A stretch of DNA of 58,033 nucleotides from Candidatus Aquidulcis sp. (GTDB lineage Bacteria; Chloroflexota; Anaerolineae; Anaerolineales; UBA4823): positions 1 to 58,033 of the forward strand of contig DYIZ01000019.1 of NCBI GenBank assembly GCA_020723385.1, read 5' to 3'. How positions within the stretch are numbered: the first letter of the stretch is position 1; each line of letters opens with the position of its first letter. The translations under genes and the position numbers were made by a program. Below are positions 14,523 through 58,033 of the stretch, one piece after another. The notes under the pieces are model-generated. The model searched no databases and was not told the DNA's origin. It saw only the letters and a program-made list of their open reading frames with translations.

Positions 14523-16769
14523 ATGAATATCATCGGTCAATCCACCCCCCGCCTCGACGCCATCAGCAAGGTGACTGGAGAAGCGAAATTCCCCGGCGAC
14601 CTCAACCTGCCGAACCAGGCTTACATGAAAATCCTGTTTGCGGCCCGCCCGCACGCCATCGTCCGGCGCATTGACACGTCCAAAGCTGAGGCGTTGCCCG
14701 GCGTGATCGCCGTTTTCACCGCCAAAGATGTACCGGTGAACGAGTACGGCCTCATCATGCCCGATCAGCCTGTTTTGTGCGGCCCCGGCTCATCCAAGCC
14801 GTATACTGACCACGTGCGCTGGGTGGGCGACCAGGTGGCGCTGGTGGTGGCCGAAACCGAGGAGATCGCTGCCAAAGGGCGAAATTTGATCGAGGTGGAT
14901 TACGAAGGTTTGCCGCTGGTCACTGATCCGCAGAATGCCATGCAGGCCGACGCGCCAGTGCTGCACCCCGACCGGGGCAGCAACATCTTCTGCCATTACC
15001 GCATCCGCAAAGGCGATGTTGACGCGGCTTTTGCCGATTCAGATGTGATTGTCGAGGGTGAATACCGCACCCCGGCGCAGGAACACGCTTATCTCCAGCC
15101 CGAAGCCGGGTTGGGATACATTGACGAGCAGGGCCGCGTCGCCGTACAGGTGGCCGGGCAGTGGACGCACGAAGATCAGGAGCAGATCGCGCACGCATTG
15201 GGGCTGCCTCTCGAACAGGTGCGCGTCATCTATCCGGCGATTGGCGGCGCATTCGGCGGGCGCGAGGATATGTCCGTGCAGATCGTGCTGGCATTGGCCG
15301 TGTGGCGGCTCAACCAGCGGGGGATCAACCGCCCGGTGAAGATCATCTGGAGCCGCGAGGAATCCATCGTCGGCCATCATAAGCGCCACCCGTATATTTT
15401 GAAGGCCAAATGGGGCGCGAAGAAAGACGGCAAACTGGTCGCGGCGCAGGTGGAAGTCATCGCCGATGGGGGTGGATACGCTTACACCTCCACCAAAGTG
15501 CTCGGCAACGCCACGCTGATGTGTACCGGCCCGTACGAAATTCCCAACGTGAAGGTTGATTCCTACGCCGTTTACACCAATAACGCTGTGACCGGCGCGT
15601 TCCGCGGCTTTGGCGGGCCGCAGGGAGCCTTCGAAGCCGAGACGCAGATGAACCGGCTGGCCGAAATTCTGGAAATAGATCCCATCGAGATCCGCCGCCG
15701 CAACCTGCTCACCGAGGGGTCGCTGCTCTCCGTGGGAACGCCGCTGCCCAAGGGGGTGAGTCTCCCCCAGGTGGTGGATCGGTTGAAGGTCGAAAGTTCC
15801 AGGTTGAAGGATAACCTTCGATCCTTCGCCAGGCTCAAGGCAGGCTCTTCAACCGCCAACCCTTCGGCAAGCTCGGTGCAGGCTCTTCAACCGCATATCA
15901 AACGCGGCATCGGCTATGGAGCCGCCTACAAAAACGTCGGTTTTTCGTTTGGCGCGCCGGAGCAGTCCACCGCCATCGTTGAGTTGTTCGGCGCGGCGGA
16001 GATCGAGCGAGCCATCGTTCACCATGCCGGCGCGGATGTCGGGCAAGGAACGCACACCATTATGGCGCAGATTGCGGCTGAGACCCTTGGGATTCCGCTC
16101 GCCCGGGTGCAGATGATCGTCTCCGACACGGCAGTCACCGGCAACTCCGGCAGCGCATCGGCCTCGCGCTTGACCTTCATGGCGGGCAATTCCATCAAGG
16201 GCGCGTGCGAGCAGGCGCTGGAAAAGTGGCGCAGCGAGGAACGTCCCGTTTCCGTGACTTTCCAATACCGCCCGCCAAGGACCACCCCCCTCGATCCGCA
16301 AACCGGCAAATCCGAGCCGAATTTCGCTTATGGTTACGTCGCCCAAGCAGTGACGGTCGAAGTGGACACTGAGACCGGGCATGTGCGTATCCTCGATGTG
16401 ATTTCCGTGGACGATGTCGGCAAAGCAATCAACCCGCAGCAAGTGCAGGGTCAGATCGAAGGAGCCGTGGTGCAGGCCGCTGGTTACGCTGTGTTGGAAA
16501 ATTTCGTCCAGAAAGATGGGCGCGTGCTCACCGACAAATTCTCGAACTACCTCATCCCGACGGTGCTCGACGTGCCCGAGCGGGTGCAATCCGTCATTTT
16601 AGAATATCCCGACCCGATTGGCCCCTATGGGGCGCGCGGCATGGCCGAAATGCCCTACCTGCCGTTTGCACCGGCGGTCATCGCCGCGGTGCATGACGCC
16701 ATTGGTGTGTGGTTCCACGAATTTCCGCTGACGCCGGAGAGGGTGTTGAGAGGGTTAGGGAAATTATGA
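14523..16769 (+). CDS. Molybdenum hydroxylase large subunit (xanthine dehydrogenase family)
   Basis: The 748-residue protein has the aldehyde oxidase/xanthine dehydrogenase layout: an a/b hammerhead domain (about 14-125), then two molybdopterin-binding domains. Visible motifs are GGAFGGRED, GAFRGFGGPQ and, near the end, GARGMAEMP with Glu709 in the position of the catalytic glutamate. It should hydroxylate a heterocycle or aldehyde using water. Its iron-sulfur and FAD partner subunits are not in the window, so it either acts alone or uses subunits encoded elsewhere. Residues 420-457 (LKVESSRLKDNLRSF through SSVQALQP) come from a GGTTGAA-type repeat inserted in frame between the two Mo domains. 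It overlaps the YqeB gene by 4 bases. Confidence 0.85.
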   Translation: MNIIGQSTPRLDAISKVTGEAKFPGDLNLPNQAYMKILFAARPHAIVRRIDTSKAEALPGVIAVFTAKDVPVNEYGLIMPDQPVLCGPGSSKPYTDHVRWVGDQVALVVAETEEIAAKGRNLIEVDYEGLPLVTDPQNAMQADAPVLHPDRGSNIFCHYRIRKGDVDAAFADSDVIVEGEYRTPAQEHAYLQPEAGLGYIDEQGRVAVQVAGQWTHEDQEQIAHALGLPLEQVRVIYPAIGGAFGGREDMSVQIVLALAVWRLNQRGINRPVKIIWSREESIVGHHKRHPYILKAKWGAKKDGKLVAAQVEVIADGGGYAYTSTKVLGNATLMCTGPYEIPNVKVDSYAVYTNNAVTGAFRGFGGPQGAFEAETQMNRLAEILEIDPIEIRRRNLLTEGSLLSVGTPLPKGVSLPQVVDRLKVESSRLKDNLRSFARLKAGSSTANPSASSVQALQPHIKRGIGYGAAYKNVGFSFGAPEQSTAIVELFGAAEIERAIVHHAGADVGQGTHTIMAQIAAETLGIPLARVQMIVSDTAVTGNSGSASASRLTFMAGNSIKGACEQALEKWRSEERPVSVTFQYRPPRTTPLDPQTGKSEPNFAYGYVAQAVTVEVDTETGHVRILDVISVDDVGKAINPQQVQGQIEGAVVQAAGYAVLENFVQKDGRVLTDKFSNYLIPTVLDVPERVQSVILEYPDPIGPYGARGMAEMPYLPFAPAVIAAVHDAIGVWFHEFPLTPERVLRGLGKL
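15781..15892. repeat. GGTTGAA-type repeat inside the molybdenum hydroxylase gene
   Basis: GGTTGAAGGTCGAAAG and AGGTTGAAGG are followed by two copies of a second unit (CCTTCGCCAGGCTCAAGGCA and CCTTCGGCAAGCTCGGTGCA), each ending GGCTCTTCAACCG. The unit matches, inverted, the repeat at 29240-29289. It is read in frame here, in two different frames for the two copies. Confidence 0.85.
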
Positions 16770-17578
16770 TCGTCCTCATCCTCGGCGGCGGAGACCTGGC
16801 TTCGGGGGTGGCCCTGCGGCTGCACCGCGCCGGTCTGAAAGTTGTCATCACCGAACTGGCGCAGCCGCTCGCCGTGCGGCGTAAAGCCGCCTTTGCCGAG
16901 GCCGTCTATGCCGGCGAGACCACCGTGGAGGAAGTCACCGCCCGCCGGGTGGCTGATCCCACCGATAATTTACGCATCATTCAAATCCTTGCCAAAGGCC
17001 ATATCCCCGTGCTGATTGACCCCGAGTCGCAGGCCATCGCCAGCGTCCACCCGACGGTGGTGGTGGACGCCCGCATGGTCAAGCAATCCGTCCCGCTGCC
17101 TGCGACGCGTGTCAACTTGCTTATCGGGTTGGGACCGGGCTTCGACGCGCCGGTCAACTGCCATGCCGCCATCGAGACGAAGCGCGGCCACACCCTGGGG
17201 CGTGTGCTCTGGCAGGGCCAGCCCGAACTCGATACCGGCCTGCCCGACCCCGTTGGGAATCACCTCGCCGACCGGGTGCTGCGCGCCCCGGCAGACGGCG
17301 AGGTTGTCGCTCACGCCGAGATCGGCGCTCACCTCGAGCCGGGCCAGCCGATTGCTGAGATCGCCGGGCAGGTTATCGCAGCCCCGTTTGCCGGAATTCT
17401 GCGCGGGCTGATCCATCCGGGCGTCGCGGTCGCCGCCGGGCTGAAAATCGGCGATCTTGACCCGCGCGACGACCCGCGCCTGGTCAGCCTTGTCTCGGAC
17501 AAGGCCCTGGCAATCGGCGGGGCGGTGCTCGAAGCCATCCTTTCCCGGCCCAATCTGCGCCCCCATTTGTGGTCCTAA
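16766..17578 (+). CDS. yqeB: YqeB-like molybdenum hydroxylase maturation protein
   Basis: The start is the ATG at 16766, which overlaps the stop of the hydroxylase gene (ATGA); a longer frame from 16709 would overlap more and has no better ribosome site. The 270-residue protein opens MIVLILGGGDLASGVALRLHRAG, a Rossmann-like glycine motif, and follows the family known as EF2563/YqeB, tied to selenium-dependent molybdenum hydroxylases. GLGPGFDAPVNCHAAIETKRGH and GRVLWQG in the middle are typical of it. It probably helps insert or modify the molybdenum cofactor of the enzyme encoded upstream. Tight coupling to the hydroxylase and YqeC/MocA genes supports that role. Confidence 0.82.
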   Translation: MIVLILGGGDLASGVALRLHRAGLKVVITELAQPLAVRRKAAFAEAVYAGETTVEEVTARRVADPTDNLRIIQILAKGHIPVLIDPESQAIASVHPTVVVDARMVKQSVPLPATRVNLLIGLGPGFDAPVNCHAAIETKRGHTLGRVLWQGQPELDTGLPDPVGNHLADRVLRAPADGEVVAHAEIGAHLEPGQPIAEIAGQVIAAPFAGILRGLIHPGVAVAAGLKIGDLDPRDDPRLVSLVSDKALAIGGAVLEAILSRPNLRPHLWS

Positions 17579-17582
17579 AATA

Positions 17583-17656
17583 TTCACCGCTGAGATCGCA
17601 GAGAGCGCTGAGAAAACCGATAAAATCTCTGCGGACTCAGCGTGCTTTGCGGTGAA
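17583..17656. repeat. Inverted array of GCAGAG/CGCTGAG words
   Basis: TTCACCGCTGAGATCGCAGA with AGAGCGCTGAG faces TCTCTGCGGACTCAGCG and TTTGCGGTGAA. The outer ends TTCACCGC / GCGGTGAA are exact. It fills the junction between the YqeB and YqeC genes. Confidence 0.7.
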
Positions 17657-17686
17657 ATTCTTGTTTTGGAACAGGGCAATACATTC

Positions 17687-18724
17687 GTGAAACTTTCTAC
17701 AGCTTTCCGCCTGTCTTCCGGCAGTCGAATTGCCCTCGTTGGAGCGGGCGGTAAAACAACGGCGTTGTTCACGCTGGCGCGTGAGCTGACCCCGGCGCTG
17801 GTCGCCGCCAGCACCCATCTCGGCGAAGCGCAAGCGGCGTTGGCCGACCGGCACATTATCTGGCCTGACGACGAGCCGCTGCCAGACATCGAGCCGGTAT
17901 TGGGCCAGGGGGTGACGCTGCTCACCGGTCCGCTGGAAGCTTCCACTGGACGCTTGCAGGGTCTTAATCCCGCCCAATTGGAAAAGGTGGAAGCCCTGGC
18001 TGGCTATCATGATTTACTGCTGCTCATCGAAGCTGACGGGTCACGGATGCGCCCGGTGAAAGCCCCCGCCGCGCACGAACCGGCCATCCCGCCGTTTGTG
18101 GATACCGTGGTTGTCGTGGCGGGATTGTCGGCGATTGGGAAACCGCTGACCGATGAGTGGGTACACCGCTCAGAGATTTTCGCGGCGCTGGCGGGCCTCG
18201 CACCGGGCGGGATCATCACCCCCGAGGGGCTGGCGCGTCTCCTGGTCCATCCCGAGGGCGGCCTTAAGCATATCCCGGCCAAAGCGCGCCGCCTCGCCCT
18301 GCTCAACCAGGCCGATACGACGGAATTGCAAGCCGCCGGGCAGCGAATCGCAGGCCACCTTCTTTCAGCGTTTCATGCGGTGGTCGTAGCACGGTTGAAG
18401 GTTGAAGGTTTTCAAGTTGAAAGTTCATCCCCCAACGACCATCCACCAACTTTCAACCGCCAATCGCCAACCTTCAACCTTCAACCTTCAACCTTCGAAT
18501 CCATCGCTGGAATCGTCCTTGCCGCCGGGGGTTCGGCCCGCTTCGGGCAGCCCAAGCAGCTATTGGATTGGCAGGGCGAGCCGTTCGTGCGGCGCGTGGC
18601 GCACACGGCGCTGCAAGCCGGGCTGTCGCCGGTGGTGGTTGTGACCGGGTCGGATGCCGAGCGGGTAGGGGCGGCGCTGGACGGTCTCGATATTCGCATA
18701 GCCTACAATCCCGATTGGGAGTAG
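17687..18724 (+). CDS. yqeC: YqeC-MocA fusion, 5' part up to an in-frame amber codon
   Basis: The likely start is the GTG at 17687 ([28 protein letters not shown]); the frame opens at 17642 inside the preceding repeat. Residues 1-235 are YqeC-like: a P-loop [23 protein letters not shown] and the [12 protein letters not shown] region, as in the selenium-hydroxylase accessory family. Residues 236-272 are a low-complexity linker encoded by GGTTGAA words. Residues 273-345 begin a MocA-type nucleotidyltransferase ([19 protein letters not shown]), which would transfer a nucleotide to the Mo cofactor. Translation stops at TAG (18722-18724) after NPDWE, although the same frame continues as MocA for 170 more codons. 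As written, the transferase domain is incomplete. Confidence 0.75.
18393..18496. repeat. GGTTGAA-word inverted array inside the YqeC-MocA linker
   Basis: GGTTGAAGGTTGAAGG and further copies (18393-18426) face AACTTTCAACC and four AACCTTC words (18446-18496). It encodes the linker between the two domains without breaking the frame. Confidence 0.85.
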
Positions 18725-19234
18725 GGGCAGAGCACTTCGCTGCGGGCGGGGCTGCAAGGGTTATACCCTAAGTATCTATCGGAAAATTTACCGGATTGTC
18801 ATTGCGAGCGATCTTTGCAAAGCAATCTCGGTTTTGAAAATAATGGGATTGCTTCGTCGCCAAATACGCTCCTCGCAATGACAGGTCAACCATCGAACTT
18901 TCAGATCGAGCCTGGCGGCGCGATCTTCCTGCTCGCCGACCAGCCGCAGACGCCGCCTACGTTGATCCGGTCGCTGGTCGAGATGCATGCCCGCACGCTG
19001 GCGCCCATCATTGCTCCGCTGGTGAATGGGCAGCGGGGCAACCCGGTGCTGTTCGACCGGGCAACTTTCTCCGATCTGCTATCCCTCACCGGCGACGTGG
19101 GCGGGCGGTCGCTTTTCAGCCGCTACCCGGTGGAATGGCTGCCCTGGCATGACGAAGGGGTGTTGTTGGATGTGGATACGGAGGAGGATTATTCGAGGTT
19201 GGTCGGAAAGGGTGACGTAAAACGTAAAACGTAA
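18725..19234 (+). pseudogene. MocA domain, 3' part beyond the amber codon
   Basis: The frame continues directly from TAG with GQSTSLRAGLQGL, the conserved MocA loop, and later AIFLLADQPQTPPTLIRSL, GQRGNPVLF and VLLDVDTEEDYSRL, all typical of the nucleotidyltransferase C-terminal half. A palindromic element (18797-18883) is embedded in frame after GLQGL. The last residues (GDVKRKT) come from ACGTAAA words. No start codon with a ribosome site is found near the beginning, so I call it a remnant cut off by a nonsense mutation. Read-through, or a sequencing or assembly error at one base, would restore a full fusion protein. Confidence 0.65.
18797..18883. repeat. TGTCATTGCGAG palindromic element inside MocA
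   Basis: TGTCATTGCGAG (18797-18808) is exactly inverted at 18872-18883, and AAGCAATC / GATTGCTT pair inside. The element is 87 bases, 29 codons, and keeps the frame. The motif is a widely dispersed bacterial palindrome. Confidence 0.85.
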
Positions 19235-19298
19235 AACGTAAAACGTACACAGGTATACAGGTAAACAGGCATAGCTTTACGTTTTACGCATTACGTTT
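19214..19298. repeat. ACGTAAA-word inverted array
   Basis: Five direct ACGTAAAA-type words (19214-19246) are followed by AGGTATAC, AGGTAAAC, AGGCATAG and then the inverted CTTTACGTTTTACGC and ATTACGTTT (19275-19298). It joins the two MocA genes. Confidence 0.85.
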
Positions 19299-19330
19299 AT
19301 TGTGGTGAAGTTGCTCGTGGAAGGTGATTT

Positions 19331-20032
19331 ATGTTCTCCGCAGTTGTCCTTGCCGCCGGTTTATCGTCACGCATGGGCCGACCGAAGATGACGCTCCCCT
19401 GGGGGGAGACGACGGTCATTGGGAAGGTAGTATCCACGCTGGCGGAGGCTGGCGTGGAGGGGATCGTCGTGGTCACAGGCGGGGCGCGGGAGGCGGTGGA
19501 GGCGGCTGTCGCCGCTCTCGCCCCCAAGCTCTTCCCAGGAAGGGAAAGGGGAATAGGGGTCAGGGTCGTGTTCAACCCGCGTTACGCCGAGGATTCGATG
19601 ATCACGTCGCTGCAAGTGGGGCTGGCGGCGCTTTACCCCCCTCGGTCCCCCCATTTTCGCCCCAAATCTTTTCCCGATTCCATAACCTCCGGCGGGCGAA
19701 AATGGGGGGATGACAGGGGGGCTTTGATGCAAGCTGTCTTTGTCACCCTTGGCGACCAGCCCCAGATCGAAGCCGCGGTGGTGCGGGCGATCATGGATAC
19801 CTACCGGGCGACACACGCCCCGCTGGTCTTGCCGAGCTACCGGATGCGGCGCGGCCACCCCTGGGTGATGGATCGCTCGCTGTGGGCCGAGGCCCTTGCG
19901 GCTCCCGCGTCCGTCACCCTGCGGGACTTCCTCAACGCCCACGCGGCGCAAATTCATTATCTGCCTGTCGAGACGCCCAGTGTGTTAGCCGATCTCGATA
20001 CGCCAGAAGATTATGCGGCTGCCCAGCCTTAA
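19331..20032 (+). CDS. MocA-like molybdenum cofactor nucleotidyltransferase
   Basis: The 233-residue protein opens with the nucleotidyltransferase motif VVLAAGLSSRMGRPKMTLPWG (G-x-S-x-R-M/F-G-x-x-K), and has VTLGDQPQIE with the Mg-binding Asp, RRGHPWVMD and VLADLDTPEDYAAAQP at the end. It resembles MocA, which attaches CMP to molybdopterin for xanthine-dehydrogenase-type enzymes, and so would serve the hydroxylase upstream. It is complete, unlike the MocA domain of the preceding fusion. Residues 105-131 (SPHFRPKSF through WGDDRGAL) are encoded by a palindromic insert. Residues 61-73 (APKLFPGRERGIG) also look like extra, repeat-derived sequence. ATG at 19331; the ribosome site GGAAGG lies a few bases upstream. 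Confidence 0.82.
   Translation: MFSAVVLAAGLSSRMGRPKMTLPWGETTVIGKVVSTLAEAGVEGIVVVTGGAREAVEAAVAALAPKLFPGRERGIGVRVVFNPRYAEDSMITSLQVGLAALYPPRSPHFRPKSFPDSITSGGRKWGDDRGALMQAVFVTLGDQPQIEAAVVRAIMDTYRATHAPLVLPSYRMRRGHPWVMDRSLWAEALAAPASVTLRDFLNAHAAQIHYLPVETPSVLADLDTPEDYAAAQP
19647..19709. repeat. CCCCCATTTTCG palindrome inside the MocA-like gene
   Basis: CCCCCCATTTTCGCCC (19647-19662) is exactly inverted at 19694-19709; the flanks CCCCCCTCGGT and ATGACAGGGGGG extend the symmetry to about 19635-19721. Related hairpins lie at 49851-49962. Confidence 0.85.
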
Positions 20033-28189: not shown

Positions 28190-29296
28190 TTATATACCAA
28201 CTCGATGCGCATCACAACAGGCTTTGAGTAGTTTTTCCGGCTGGCGGGCAAAGGCATTCAGCGGCATCCTTCCCTCGGTGAGCGCCAGCAATGTCTCGGT
28301 CAGCCAGCGGTTGACCGGGGTGGGCATGCCCCGTCGCTCGCCGTAGCGCGCCACCGCTCCGTTGAGATAGCCCACCTCGCTCTGCCCGCGCCCGCTGTAC
28401 AAGTCAATGTGAAACGACGGCATTTTGTCGCCCCGCCCACGGCCGACGGCGCGCGCCAGCAGCGGGCGCGAAATCGCCGCGGGCAGGCGCACACCCAGCG
28501 CCAGCAGCCGCACCGGCGTGCGCGGCAAATCCACCACGCCCACGCCCATCGCCCGCATTACACGCAGCGCCTCCCGCAATTGCGTCACCTCCAGCCGGCA
28601 CAAGCCGGGATGGGCGAAGATTTCTGCGGGGGTCATGTTCAGGATGGCCGCTGAGGCGTTTGCCAGCAGGTTGGTGAGCAGCTTCGACCATTTCATGTCG
28701 GCGGAGCGCGGGTACAGGCGCGCATTCAGCCCGGCATCGGTCAGGGCGGCGGCCAATCTCTCGGAGAGCGGATGACCTGCGGCAACGCCGATCCCACGCA
28801 ATCGTTCGACGATCACTTCTCCCGGCGCGCCGCGCCCGATAGCGGAGGTCACTGTCCCGGCGATGATTTTCTCCGGGCCGAGGGTTTCTGCCAGAGTGGG
28901 TTCGTTGTCTACGCCGTTGGAGAGGCAGAGCAGAGCGTGAAGCGTGGAGCGTGAAGCGTGGAGCGACGGCAGGAGAGCGGGTATGTCGAAGGATTTGAGA
29001 GCGAGAATAGCGCAATCGAATGGCCCCAAGGGGAGCGCTTCGTCGAGGCTGGTCACAATCTCGAATGCTGGCGGTCGAATGTCGAGAGGGGTCTCGCCGC
29101 CCCGAAGGCGCAGCCCGCGTCGGCGAATCTCAGCGGCGATTTCCGGGCGTTCGATGAACACCGCCCGGTGGCCGCGCCCCGCCAGGCTGCCGCCGACGTA
29201 AGTCCCGATCGCCCCCGCGCCGAAGAGAAGCAGGTTTAATGGGTTGAAGGTTGAAGAGCCTGCCCTGAGCTTGCCGAAGGGTTGAAAGTCGCTCAC
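28190..29296 (-). CDS. Ketopantoate reductase family protein (PanE/ApbA)
   Basis: The NAD(P)H motif NLLLFGAGAIGTYVGGSLAGRGH marks the family; the C-terminal domain has DMKWSKLLTNLLANASAAIL with the catalytic Lys and Asn, and PSFHIDLYSGRGQSEVGYLNGAVARYG. It would reduce 2-dehydropantoate to pantoate for CoA, or a similar 2-oxo acid. No ATG stands at the usual N-terminus. The best start is GTG 29296, which overlaps the stop of the preceding gene (GTGA). The first 20 residues (SDFQPFGKLRAGSSTFNP) are then read from a GGTTGAA-type repeat. At 368 residues it is longer than the usual 300-320, partly from this extension. Cotranscribed with the phosphatase gene. Confidence 0.8.
   Translation of the reverse strand: MSDFQPFGKLRAGSSTFNPLNLLLFGAGAIGTYVGGSLAGRGHRAVFIERPEIAAEIRRRGLRLRGGETPLDIRPPAFEIVTSLDEALPLGPFDCAILALKSFDIPALLPSLHASRSTLHALLCLSNGVDNEPTLAETLGPEKIIAGTVTSAIGRGAPGEVIVERLRGIGVAAGHPLSERLAAALTDAGLNARLYPRSADMKWSKLLTNLLANASAAILNMTPAEIFAHPGLCRLEVTQLREALRVMRAMGVGVVDLPRTPVRLLALGVRLPAAISRPLLARAVGRGRGDKMPSFHIDLYSGRGQSEVGYLNGAVARYGERRGMPTPVNRWLTETLLALTEGRMPLNAFARQPEKLLKACCDAHRVGI
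29240..29289. repeat. GGTTGAA-type repeat at the start of the PanE-like gene
   Basis: GGGTTGAAGGTTGAAGAGCC, TGCCCTGAGCTTGCCGAAGG and GTTGAAAG follow one another. Inverted, the middle unit matches the two units in the molybdenum hydroxylase gene (15781-15892). Next to it, GCTCACTT words (29292-29316) encode the end of the phosphatase. Confidence 0.8.
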
Positions 29297-33258: not shown

Positions 33259-33317
33259 CCGATTATTTGATGTTCGAATGTGCTTCGCACGCTCGAACAT
33301 CAAATAATCGGATTTTT
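33259..33317. terminator. Bidirectional terminator hairpin
   Basis: A 25-base arm starting CCGATTATTTGATGTTCGA (33259-33283) pairs with 33287-33311, with TTC in the loop and only two non-Watson-Crick positions. TTTTTTT follows on the plus strand, ending the gene at 33226. It resembles the hairpins at 1012 and 57979 in size and loop. Confidence 0.85.
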
Positions 33318-51683: not shown

Positions 51684-53858
51684 TCATCGCCCTCGCCGGT
51701 TCGCGGGCGGGATACTGACCACCGGCAGATAGATCCACGACTGCGGCTGCCAGCGCAGGATGATCAGCCCATCGTGGGGCGGCAGCGTCACCTGTGACAC
51801 CTGGCTGCCGTTGTTCACCGCCGTATCTTGCGTCCCGTTGATTTTTCGATAGGTCCCGCCAAGCTCGATGACTTGCGGCTGGGCGGATGCGTTGACCAGC
51901 GCCACGCCATTGGTGAAATCGCGCCGCCAGACTTCCCGGCTGCCCGTTTGCAATTGCACGCCGTCCAGCCAGACTACACCGGTCGTCTGCCCCAGGCCGA
52001 ATTGGAAAACGGACTGCGCATCGCTGCCGGTTGCGGTGGCGGCGACCTCGTATTGTCGCCACTCGGGGGTCAGCGTGAACTCGCCATATACCAGCCAGCC
52101 TTCCCAGGGATCGTGATTCTGCTGCCCCCAGGCGCTCACCGTGCGGGTGATGTCGGCTCTGGCCCAGAATGACAGGGTGTAATCCGTGCCAGAGATCACC
52201 GTCACCGGTTCGAAGGAGAGGGACACCTGCCAGTCGGTTCCCTGGGTTTGCAGGATATCCATTCGGGCTGATGCATCCCCTACGGCGGATGTGGTCGTGT
52301 CCAATCGAAGGGTGGCTGAATAACCCTGGTCGGTGTCGGCCCAAAAATCCCATTGATCGAGGTCGGCCTGGCTCTCGAAGCCGCCCGATGGCAGCAGGTT
52401 GGGTGTGGTCAACGCCGTGACGGCGCGCACCGCCGGGCCGAGGGGTACCCCCAAGTAACCGCGTCCCTGCCCGGCGTTGTCGTATTCGTCGAACCACAGC
52501 AGGCACAGCGAGCCGTGGCCGTTGGTGTTGATCTCGTAGCTGAAATAGCCATCGCCGAGCAGGGCGGTGGTCAGCCCGAAGCGCATCTTGCGGTAGTTGG
52601 GGGTGAAACCGGGATCGTCGCAGGGGTTGTCGTAGCCGCCCCCGGAGGTTGGGTCGGGGCCGCGGTCGTCCTCGTAGGTTTCGATCATGGTCAGGTTGGG
52701 CTGGCGGGCGTAGGCCAGCCAGTCGAAATAGCTGCCCTTTTCGGGCCAGGGGCCGAACACCGCCGAGCGCCAATTCTCCCCGTAAGCCGTGGCGTTATCC
52801 ATCGGGAAGCCCTCGAAATTGTTGCCGTTGAGCAGGTCGTAATTGGTCATGCCCCAGTTGACGAAGATGATGCGGCTATTGCCCACCGCCAGGCGCAGAT
52901 TTTGCTCGTACAGGCGCAGCCCTTCGTTCCAGGCCGCGTCGAAGGCGGAATAATCGGTGAGCAGTGTGTTGGATTGGTCGGGGTCAATCGTGCGGGCGGT
53001 GGAATTTCCTATTAGCCAGGATTCGTTGGGGTCGGAGCGGTCGAGCAGGATGCCATCCCAGCGCGGGTCAGCCAGCAGCCCGGCGGCGAGGCGGGCGTTG
53101 TATTCGGGCCAGATTTCCTCGCCGACGGTGGCGCTGATGACGCCTTGTGGCGAGAGGGTGCTGACGTTCATCACCCACGAGTTGGGCCAGAAGGTGACGT
53201 GAGCAGCGATGCGCGTCCCGGCGGCGTGCGCGGCTGCCGGGCGGACGTAGCCGCGCTGAACGGTGAGCGTGCGCAGGGTGGGATTCACCGCCTCGATGAG
53301 CACGCTCTCCCCCTCGATGAGCGCCGTGTCGCCGGGGATGAAGAGATCGTAGGCCGCGCCGTCGCCGCCGGTTACAGTGACCGCGTCCACGTGAAAGGTG
53401 GTCGTGGAAGCGTCAACATCTATAGAAAGCTGACTGCCCACCTGGGTCAGATACCACTGGTAAGGGATGTCTTGCAGGTAGGCGTTGTATGCCGGGTCGT
53501 CGGGGTCGTAATCCAGCTCGCAGGCGTTGGTCGAGGTGAGCAGGCGGATGTCGGGGTGCAGTGCCTTCAGCGGGTCAATGAATTCCGCCGACCACGGGCC
53601 GAGGATCACCCAATCGTAGCGGGCGATGTCGGCGAGGGGCTGCTCCCACGGGTTGGGCCACCACATGCCGAGGCGGGGGAAGGCGAGGGGTGTGGAGCGA
53701 GGGGCGGAAGGCGAGGGGAGAGGGGCGAGGAGCGTGGAGGAAGGAGCGAGAGGCGAAGGAGGCGTGGCGCTGGATGCCGGGCGGGGGATTCCGCCGCAGG
53801 CGAGGACGATGGCGAGCAGGATAATTGTTAGGATGGCGCGAACAATTTGTCTGGTCAT
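51684..53858 (-). CDS. Lipoprotein with putative glycoside-hydrolase and carbohydrate-binding domains
   Basis: This 724-residue protein has a lipobox (ILLAIVLACGG, Cys21), a Pro-rich linker and then a large domain (about 55-480) with the style of a TIM-barrel sugar hydrolase: GMWWPNPWEQPLADIARYDWVILGPW, WDGILLDRSDPNESW and DYDLLNGNNFEG (the DRSD and DERG-like acids could be catalytic). Residues 500-650 are a CBM4/9-like beta-sandwich (NLLPSGGFESQADLDQWDFW, WQVSLSFEPVTVISGTDYTLSFWARAD). It should sit on the outer surface and bind or cut a polysaccharide; the exact class is uncertain. ATG at 53858. Confidence 0.7.
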   Translation of the reverse strand: MTRQIVRAILTIILLAIVLACGGIPRPASSATPPSPLAPSSTLLAPLPSPSAPRSTPLAFPRLGMWWPNPWEQPLADIARYDWVILGPWSAEFIDPLKALHPDIRLLTSTNACELDYDPDDPAYNAYLQDIPYQWYLTQVGSQLSIDVDASTTTFHVDAVTVTGGDGAAYDLFIPGDTALIEGESVLIEAVNPTLRTLTVQRGYVRPAAAHAAGTRIAAHVTFWPNSWVMNVSTLSPQGVISATVGEEIWPEYNARLAAGLLADPRWDGILLDRSDPNESWLIGNSTARTIDPDQSNTLLTDYSAFDAAWNEGLRLYEQNLRLAVGNSRIIFVNWGMTNYDLLNGNNFEGFPMDNATAYGENWRSAVFGPWPEKGSYFDWLAYARQPNLTMIETYEDDRGPDPTSGGGYDNPCDDPGFTPNYRKMRFGLTTALLGDGYFSYEINTNGHGSLCLLWFDEYDNAGQGRGYLGVPLGPAVRAVTALTTPNLLPSGGFESQADLDQWDFWADTDQGYSATLRLDTTTSAVGDASARMDILQTQGTDWQVSLSFEPVTVISGTDYTLSFWARADITRTVSAWGQQNHDPWEGWLVYGEFTLTPEWRQYEVAATATGSDAQSVFQFGLGQTTGVVWLDGVQLQTGSREVWRRDFTNGVALVNASAQPQVIELGGTYRKINGTQDTAVNNGSQVSQVTLPPHDGLIILRWQPQSWIYLPVVSIPPANRRGR

Positions 53859-55968: not shown

Positions 55969-55989
55969 CATGACATAATTACCGTGCGC

Positions 55990-56055
55990 GTAGAGACGCC
56001 CCGCCGGGGCGTCTCTTGTTTTATTCAGACGTCCCGCCGGGGCGTCTCTACGAGG
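55990..56055. repeat. GTAGAGACGCCCC inverted repeat
   Basis: CGTAGAGACGCCCC (55989-56002) is matched by GGGGCGTCTCTACG, and between them lies a second inverted copy (CCGCCGGGGCGTCTC). This is a very common dispersed palindrome in several phyla. It fills the gap between convergent genes and overlaps the end of the SDR gene. Confidence 0.8.
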
Positions 56056-57978: not shown

Positions 57979-58033
57979 CCCGGATTTGGGGTGTGAGAGT
58001 GGGCTTCGCCCACTCTCACACCCCAAATCCGGG
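57979..58033. repeat. Perfect 26-bp hairpin with TTC loop, at window end
   Basis: Bases 57979-58004 and 58008-58033 are exact reverse complements around TTC. The arm starts CCCGGATTTGGGGTGTGAG and ends AGTGGGC. It agrees with the hairpin at 1012-1066 at most positions, and differences are matched on both arms. Confidence 0.9.

Follow-up and report, generated by a model that had tools for sequence, protein, structure and literature searches.

How do repeats of the intergenic type come to be read through, without loss of frame, in several neighbouring genes of one operon? The question is raised by a molybdenum-hydroxylase operon in a 58,033-nucleotide (nt) stretch of DNA from Candidatus Aquidulcis sp., of the order Anaerolineales (contig DYIZ01000019.1 of assembly GCA_020723385.1; the whole stretch is hereafter called the window). 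The genome holding the window is a draft of 6,434,379 bases in 239 contigs, with a completeness of 95.55%. The explanation that we favour, and regard as probable, is that hairpin repeats multiply in this genome as selfish or neutral DNA, and are tolerated in frame inside genes.

Inspection of the operon confirmed five repeat-like, in-frame inserts, spread over three neighbouring genes. The genes and their inserts (all on the forward strand) are as follows:

14523–16769, forward strand: molybdenum hydroxylase large subunit, 748 residues (Pfam MoCoBD_1, MoCoBD_2 and hammerhead domain), host of insert 1.
15781–15892, forward strand: insert 1, which opens with TTGAAGG-like sequence and continues with two 38-nt family D copies, all read in frame (DRLKVESSRLKDNLRSFARLKAGSSTANPSASSVQALQP); fold z −1.85.
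17642–19234, forward strand: YqeC-MocA1 fusion gene, host of inserts 2 and 3, broken by a TAG.
18393–18498, forward strand: insert 2, a family A heptamer palindrome in the YqeC-MocA linker, in frame, 35 residues; fold z −7.56.
18764–18910, forward strand: insert 3, a net gain of 46 residues in MocA1, with the inverted repeat TGTCATTGCGAG...CTCGCAATGACA at 18797–18885 (family B, resembling repetitive extragenic palindromes, REPs); fold z −3.97.
19331–20032, forward strand: MocA2, 233 residues (Pfam NTP_transf_3, MocA-like fold), host of inserts 4a and 4b.
19523–19558, forward strand: insert 4a, a gain of 12 residues in MocA2 (PKLFPGRERGIG), repeat status not established; fold z −1.05.
19634–19729, forward strand: insert 4b, a net gain of 28 residues in MocA2, a CCCCCATTTTCGCC palindrome (family E), in frame; fold z −3.89, in a loop of low predicted local distance difference test (pLDDT) score.

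The initial annotation had described four in-frame repeat events from four different families. Repeat-type DNA is indeed present at all four places and four families are represented (the heptamer family A, and families B, D and E), but the number of inserts is five, MocA2 holding two, of which 4a is not an established repeat. Insert 1 consists of two tandem 38-nt copies at 15813–15888, with the TTGAAGG-like sequence lying 5' of them, while insert 2 runs from GGTTGAAGGTTGAAGG through a spacer to CCTTCAACCTTCAACC, with 18-bp arms within 18393–18493. Inserts 2, 3 and 4b form stable stem-loops (z −7.6, −4.0 and −3.9, respectively); the folding of inserts 1 and 4a is not significant.

The sites were compared with those of relatives by aligning the hydroxylase with 20 sequences, YqeC-MocA1 with 14 and MocA2 with 10. 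Insert lengths were counted over homologues from 80 named loci, many of them from the same genomes as the relatives already aligned; rows of zero length in these counts are sequences that do not align at the site. The named relatives of the hydroxylase belong to the Anaerolineales and other Chloroflexota. Hydroxylase orthologues in relatives have 70–79% identity. Alignment with relatives, which the initial annotation had put forward as a check, bears the insertions out: the same residues are not present at the insert sites. The contrast is clearest in the MocA domains. MocA1 of the window has 60 residues at the site of insert 3, against 14 in 42 of the 52 other rows (15–16 in two; eight unaligned), and MocA2 has 17 against 5 at the site of insert 4a and 42 against 14 at that of insert 4b (each in 40 of 46 homologues). 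The large MocA1 and MocA2 inserts occupy the equivalent place in both paralogues, ahead of the strand leading into the LxDQP motif. A separate structure alignment of MocA left out two of 36 homologues, L230 and L252. In an AlphaFold2 model of MocA2 (mean pLDDT 90.4; predicted template modelling score 0.88), pLDDT falls below 80 solely in the blocks of residues 101–130, the large insert, where it is 57–67. Among known folds the model is matched best by 2we9, a MocA-like structure (TM-score 0.83 by target length). The MocA2 fold is thus predicted to be undisturbed, the large insert forming a loop of low confidence.

All four repeat families recur elsewhere in the genome. Family A, made up of TTGAAGG arrays that often stand in inverted pairs, was searched for as TTGAAGGTTGAAGG with at most one mismatch, giving 157 matches in the genome versus 3 for the reversed control. 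Its census covers the 100 of these 157 matches that were listed, together with the matches in 20 whole contigs and in the window. Of the 64 clusters examined, 24 lie in genes and in frame, 22 are intergenic, nine overlap a gene end, six lie near a start and three near a C-terminus. A cluster was classed as genic where coding signal was found on both sides of it, genes being called by a dicodon script trained on long open reading frames in 440 kb of the genome itself. Two of the 24 genic clusters, in an acyltransferase (L056) and an ABC transporter (L102), look native by eye rather than inserted. Many clusters contain both orientations, and the inverted arms form hairpins. Most elements measure 14–117 nt (14–105 nt for the genic copies). 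The 20-nt core of family D (AAGCTCAGGGCAGGCTCTTC) gave 21 matches (reversed control 0), distributed over nine genic, seven intergenic, three near-start and two overlapping loci, some of which share a site. For family E there are 23 matches (reversed control 2); this repeat is also translated in frame at two other sites, one in a hydantoinase/oxoprolinase-like open reading frame (L266 and L267) and the other in L274/L275. The ten other copies of family B that were found by pattern are all intergenic. Exact 16-mer counting was also tried as a repeat detector and was too strict for such degenerate repeats; a search for known Rfam RNAs returned two matches, both far under their gathering scores. 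The genome contains six matches to Y1_Tnp.

Hairpins as a class are concentrated between genes. In the 440-kb sample, 47 hairpins scoring at least 14 are intergenic, nine are genic and three partial, equivalent to 107 per 100 kb of intergenic and 2.3 per 100 kb of genic DNA, a difference of approximately 47-fold. Given this density, several hairpins within one operon are unusual. The initial annotation considered the events well above chance if the elements were harmful; an excess over chance stands for the multi-copy families against their near-zero controls and for hairpin density. The five inserts within 4 kb were counted only after their clustering had been noticed, and that clustering carries no formal p-value.

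In genes, family A usually yields LKVEG or LKVES from its first arm and NLQPSTF from its second. When family A proteins of this genome were compared with solved structures, extra residues (10–22) were found at the element in seven of the seven tested: about 21 in LipB, 11 in PrmC, 22 in KdpB, 10 in cellobiose phosphorylase, 19 in formate dehydrogenase, 13 in RsmF and 11 in Mfd. L123, a second hydroxylase encoded in this genome, carries a family A element in the equivalent linker. Several genes of the genome (L101, L121, L124, L134, L105, L109, L110 and L127) end inside a TTGAAGG element and take its TGA as their stop codon, with LKVEG directly before the stop in, for example, L101, L121, L124 and L134, so the element also rewrites C-termini.

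How is the frame kept? One candidate answer, that family A is inherently free of stop codons, was rejected; the reverse was found, with intergenic copies having 2.64 of six frames open versus 3.92 in shuffles. Among copies of at least 55 nt, the seven intergenic ones have 6 of their 42 frames open, compared with 23 of 72 for the 12 genic ones. The TTGA of the genic copies never gives an in-frame TGA, compared with 16 and 26 occurrences in the other two phases, and the heptamers at the stop-giving phase are variants such as TTGCAGG, TTCCAAG and TGGAAAG. For inserts whose frame is fixed by homologous sequence at either side, stop avoidance is a real property. In-frame status is no proof of harmlessness, since needed genes would not keep insertions that shift the frame. 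The simplest reading is a filter, which removes most genic insertions and retains those that can be read through in the host frame.

The favoured explanation can be set out as a series of steps. Small hairpin-forming repeats would multiply in the Anaerolineales genome as selfish or neutral DNA, landing or expanding everywhere, chiefly in the narrow gaps between operon genes. The elements are putatively mobile, candidate routes for their multiplication being (i) a transposase acting in trans, or (ii) slippage and template switching at heptamer arrays. Genic copies would persist only if (i) their length is a multiple of three and the host frame meets no stop, and (ii) the extra residues are tolerated, as in interdomain linkers and helix-to-strand loops. 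The arms of family A would then read LKVEG/LKVES and NLQPSTF, with TTGA positions that give an in-frame TGA changed, and the host protein would retain its fold and gain a flexible extra loop. Four repeat families may have done so in three adjacent genes of the operon.

Five points weigh against this explanation. Firstly, the sites in the hydroxylase and in YqeC-MocA1 are linkers whose length varies throughout the relatives. The hydroxylase linker measures 48 residues against 26–60 in the alignment with 20 relatives (50 against 28–55 over 81 rows), and the YqeC-MocA1 linker, at 43 residues, is the longest among 53 rows; the insertion claim at these two sites consequently rests on repeat content, not length. 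Nothing could be learned from aligning the DNA of the window linker with L172 and L308. Secondly, insert 4a could not be established as a member of a repeat family, having one other, weak copy and no significant fold. Thirdly, genic copies are defined by an open frame, and hence stop avoidance is partly built into the comparison. Fourthly, translation of the inserts and function of the host proteins are presumed from sequence. Fifthly, MocA1 is interrupted, as is not seen in any other aligned row (the fusion is uninterrupted in 14 of 14 aligned relatives):

18722–18724, forward strand: in-frame TAG in MocA1, 13 codons ahead of insert 3.

Other genomes of the order provide a view of the process across species. 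Exact matches to the TTGAAGG pair are found in 10 of 61 genomes, with 33 matches in the genome of the window, 40 in G031, 31 in G060, six in G029, and one or two in each of six others; one of the 36 other genomes of the same family has a match. In-frame genic copies are also present in G031, G060 and G029 (two of the relatives' loci, L149 and L152, look native by eye and were discounted). In one case, a UDP-N-acetylmannosamine dehydrogenase-like gene, the congeneric genomes G031 and G056 differ by an in-frame insert of 75 nt whose empty site is exact; no clear target duplication was seen there. Congeners with and without an element thus provide empty sites, making the question of in-gene placement testable.

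The same genomes bear on the best-surviving alternative, namely that no mobile element is involved, and that short heptamer-like stretches grow in place by slippage and template switching—expanding, switching unit and forming inverted arms. In a gene that, judged by a motif, looks like one for an NAD-dependent DNA ligase, arrays occupy the same place in both congeners and are in frame in both, but consist of CCTTCAA units in G031 and of CCTCCAA units, 48 nt longer, in G056. Similarly, L244 and L221, from other Chloroflexota, hold different heptamer arrays, in frame, in the linker of the orthologous hydroxylase. Seven is the commonest tandem period (12 of 24 arrays in the 80 named loci and 14 of 21 in the sample of the window's genome, periods ranging from 4 to 15), with a different unit in each genome; period-7 dominance and differing units together suggest that the heptamer architecture is general in the group, while the unit sequence turns over. 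The two variable linkers of the window would also suit growth in place. Against it stand the clean inserts in MocA1 and MocA2, in loops whose length is fixed in relatives; families B and E, which are not heptamer arrays; and the 75-nt insert between G031 and G056, which has both arms. We consider growth in place unlikely to account for the inserts, though it has more in its favour than any other rival to the multiplication of tolerated repeats.

A second alternative, which appears improbable, is decay, with loss of function in the whole operon or in MocA1 alone, and repeats gathering there. The TAG in MocA1 and the presence of five inserts within 4 kb both speak for it. The conservation of the proteins was measured as mean identity to the other sequences over shared columns, excluding the inserts. 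The values are 0.748 for the hydroxylase (range over all sequences 0.715–0.766), 0.506 for YqeC (0.403–0.507), 0.534 for MocA2 (0.427–0.554), and, for MocA1, 0.572 upstream of the TAG (0.441–0.589) and 0.571 downstream of it (0.395–0.571), the last being the highest among 15 sequences. Conservation equal to that of relatives outside the inserts argues that the operon proteins are not remnants, and gene decay was rejected as the main cause on these grounds. Remnant genes, and identical residues at the insert sites in all relatives, were the two outcomes that the initial annotation had named as fatal to its proposal; both were checked and neither was found. The full conservation of MocA1 beyond the TAG suggests that this codon is a recent nonsense change or an assembly error; the initial annotation had overlooked it. 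Further, all inserts are in frame, and equivalent ones occur in KdpB, LipB, PrmC, Mfd and other proteins.

Marginally less probable still is that the inserts are functional, retained for the effect of an mRNA hairpin or a peptide on the host genes. The strong hairpins of inserts 2, 3 and 4b would fit, as would the recurrence of identical peptides in unrelated proteins. The inserts are, however, absent in relatives that have the same operon, the host genes have no common theme, and the shared reading frame is explained by stop avoidance. Finally, wrong joining of repeats into genes in a metagenome bin is a very improbable source: the assembly is an incomplete draft in which one family A locus contains a run of N, but wrong joins would not preserve the frame at 24 genic sites, most elements are short, and the pattern recurs in G031, G060 and G029, which are independent genomes.

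We next place tolerated, in-frame hairpin repeats among known systems. In-frame repeats inside bacterial genes are already known from the Rickettsia palindromic elements (RPEs) of Ogata and colleagues, which are 105–146 bp long (as cited in PMC10969869 and PMC2229807). The initial annotation was reminded of these elements, and as a description the likeness holds and extends genome-wide: palindromes between genes and in frame in unrelated conserved genes, a recurring peptide, and hosts that apparently work. Inserts 2, 3 and 4b share the stem-loop; the organism group differs, and family A, built of heptamers and spanning 14–105 nt in genes, is shorter than the RPEs. GTAG and CGTC REPs are described as small palindromes, often dimers, lying mostly between same-strand genes; they also occur in frame in known genes, where they encode 20–30 residues, and their ends give neighbouring genes stop codons (PMC3733652). 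Groups CGTC-1 and CGTC-4 include RPE-6 and RPE-4, and CGTC repeats are listed there in five phyla, the Chloroflexi not among them (PMC3733652). The description given for a CGTC REP comprises a terminal CGTC (often TGTC or CCTC), a stem of 8–9 bp starting with AT, a loop of 4–5 nt and a tail near CCA (PMC3733652). Insert 3, with its TGTC...GACA ends, resembles a CGTC dimer, and other copies of its family begin with CGTC or TGTC; it has ATTGC/GCAAT pairing, but the fit of stem and loop is unclear, the comparison being with a text description rather than a consensus. Families A, D and E have neither tag by eye. The repeats behave like RPEs and intragenic REPs, and the likeness is one of behaviour rather than of established membership.

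Short tandemly repeated repetitive (STRR) sequences of cyanobacteria are reportedly heptanucleotide tandem repeats as well. Related cases are the TAACTGA repeat of Beggiatoaceae (PMC4679880) and the GGGAATC and GGGGA(C/T)T repeats of Xanthomonas and Nostoc (PMC4692102). Shared features are the tandem 7-nt unit and scattered, mostly intergenic copies; forward TAACTGA units also bring a stop to every frame and, like TTGAAGG, provide genes with stop codons. Family A differs in that its arrays are often inverted hairpin pairs rather than direct tandems, and in being far more often read through in genes. Enterobacterial RU/ERIC (enterobacterial repetitive intergenic consensus) elements and other miniature inverted-repeat transposable elements also occur in genes (PMC2759123, PMC2229807). 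They too are non-autonomous inverted-repeat elements fused in frame with genes, with a different unit structure; the repeats described here do have inverted arms, and the exact empty site between G031 and G056 shows no clear target duplication. RepRanger lists Anaerolinea thermolimosa in its REP table, and, within the terms looked for, nothing on copies inside genes was found there (PMC12306157). No report of in-frame heptamer palindromes in Chloroflexota genes was found in the open-access literature of one library. Heptamer-built repeats tolerated in frame are, in our assessment, a variation on known in-gene palindromic repeats.

Rickettsia and REP-rich species are the best-known carriers of in-frame palindromic inserts. 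Here such inserts are frequent, with several families at once, in a 6.4-Mb genome of an uncultured Chloroflexota bacterium and at least three others of the order, core enzymes included. For the annotation of Anaerolineales genomes like these, this means that proteins with unexplained extra loops are to be expected, and that the peptides LKVEG, NLQPSTF, FDKLRAG and LRQAQG are recognizable as repeat-derived. A broader proposal, about which we have rather more doubt than belief, is that the Anaerolineales, and perhaps Chloroflexota widely, carry a class of heptamer palindromes that renew themselves, with a unit sequence that changes from one species to the next. Such palindromes would time and again give core proteins new in-frame segments, new linkers and new C-terminal tails of the LKVEG-stop kind. 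If true, protein evolution would have a lineage-wide route of this kind in large-genome bacteria, beyond the Rickettsia-like endosymbionts.

The operon contains two further features:

16709–17578: accessory gene between the hydroxylase and the YqeC-MocA1 fusion, no Pfam match; presumably an EF2563-like selenium-dependent hydroxylase protein.
19212–19305, forward strand: GTAAAAC-type heptamer palindrome in the MocA1-MocA2 gap, overlapping the end of the MocA1 frame; fold z −2.49.

The latter is the intergenic counterpart of the operon's inserts. Elsewhere in the window, a combined family A and D repeat (VSDFQPFGKLRAGSSTFNPLNLLLFGAGAIG) lies at 29241–29289, at the extreme N-terminus of the minus-strand gene 28190–29296, the true start of which may be downstream of the repeat. 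In the same genome, a DNA polymerase III alpha gene (L133:1-3768) contains an intein that includes a LAGLIDADG domain, and the C-terminal linker encoded by this gene also carries a family A element. Low-complexity stretches of the SPLAPRPSPLA type occur in several proteins (window 53675–53730; L123, L144, L117 and L045) and may represent another in-frame repeat family. The window also has long hairpins, their arms measuring 25–26 bp, at 1012–1066, 33259–33311, 55989–56052 and 57979–58033. Those at 1012 and 57979 are similar in sequence and both resemble L042 1584–1638, which suggests that more palindromic repeat families are present.

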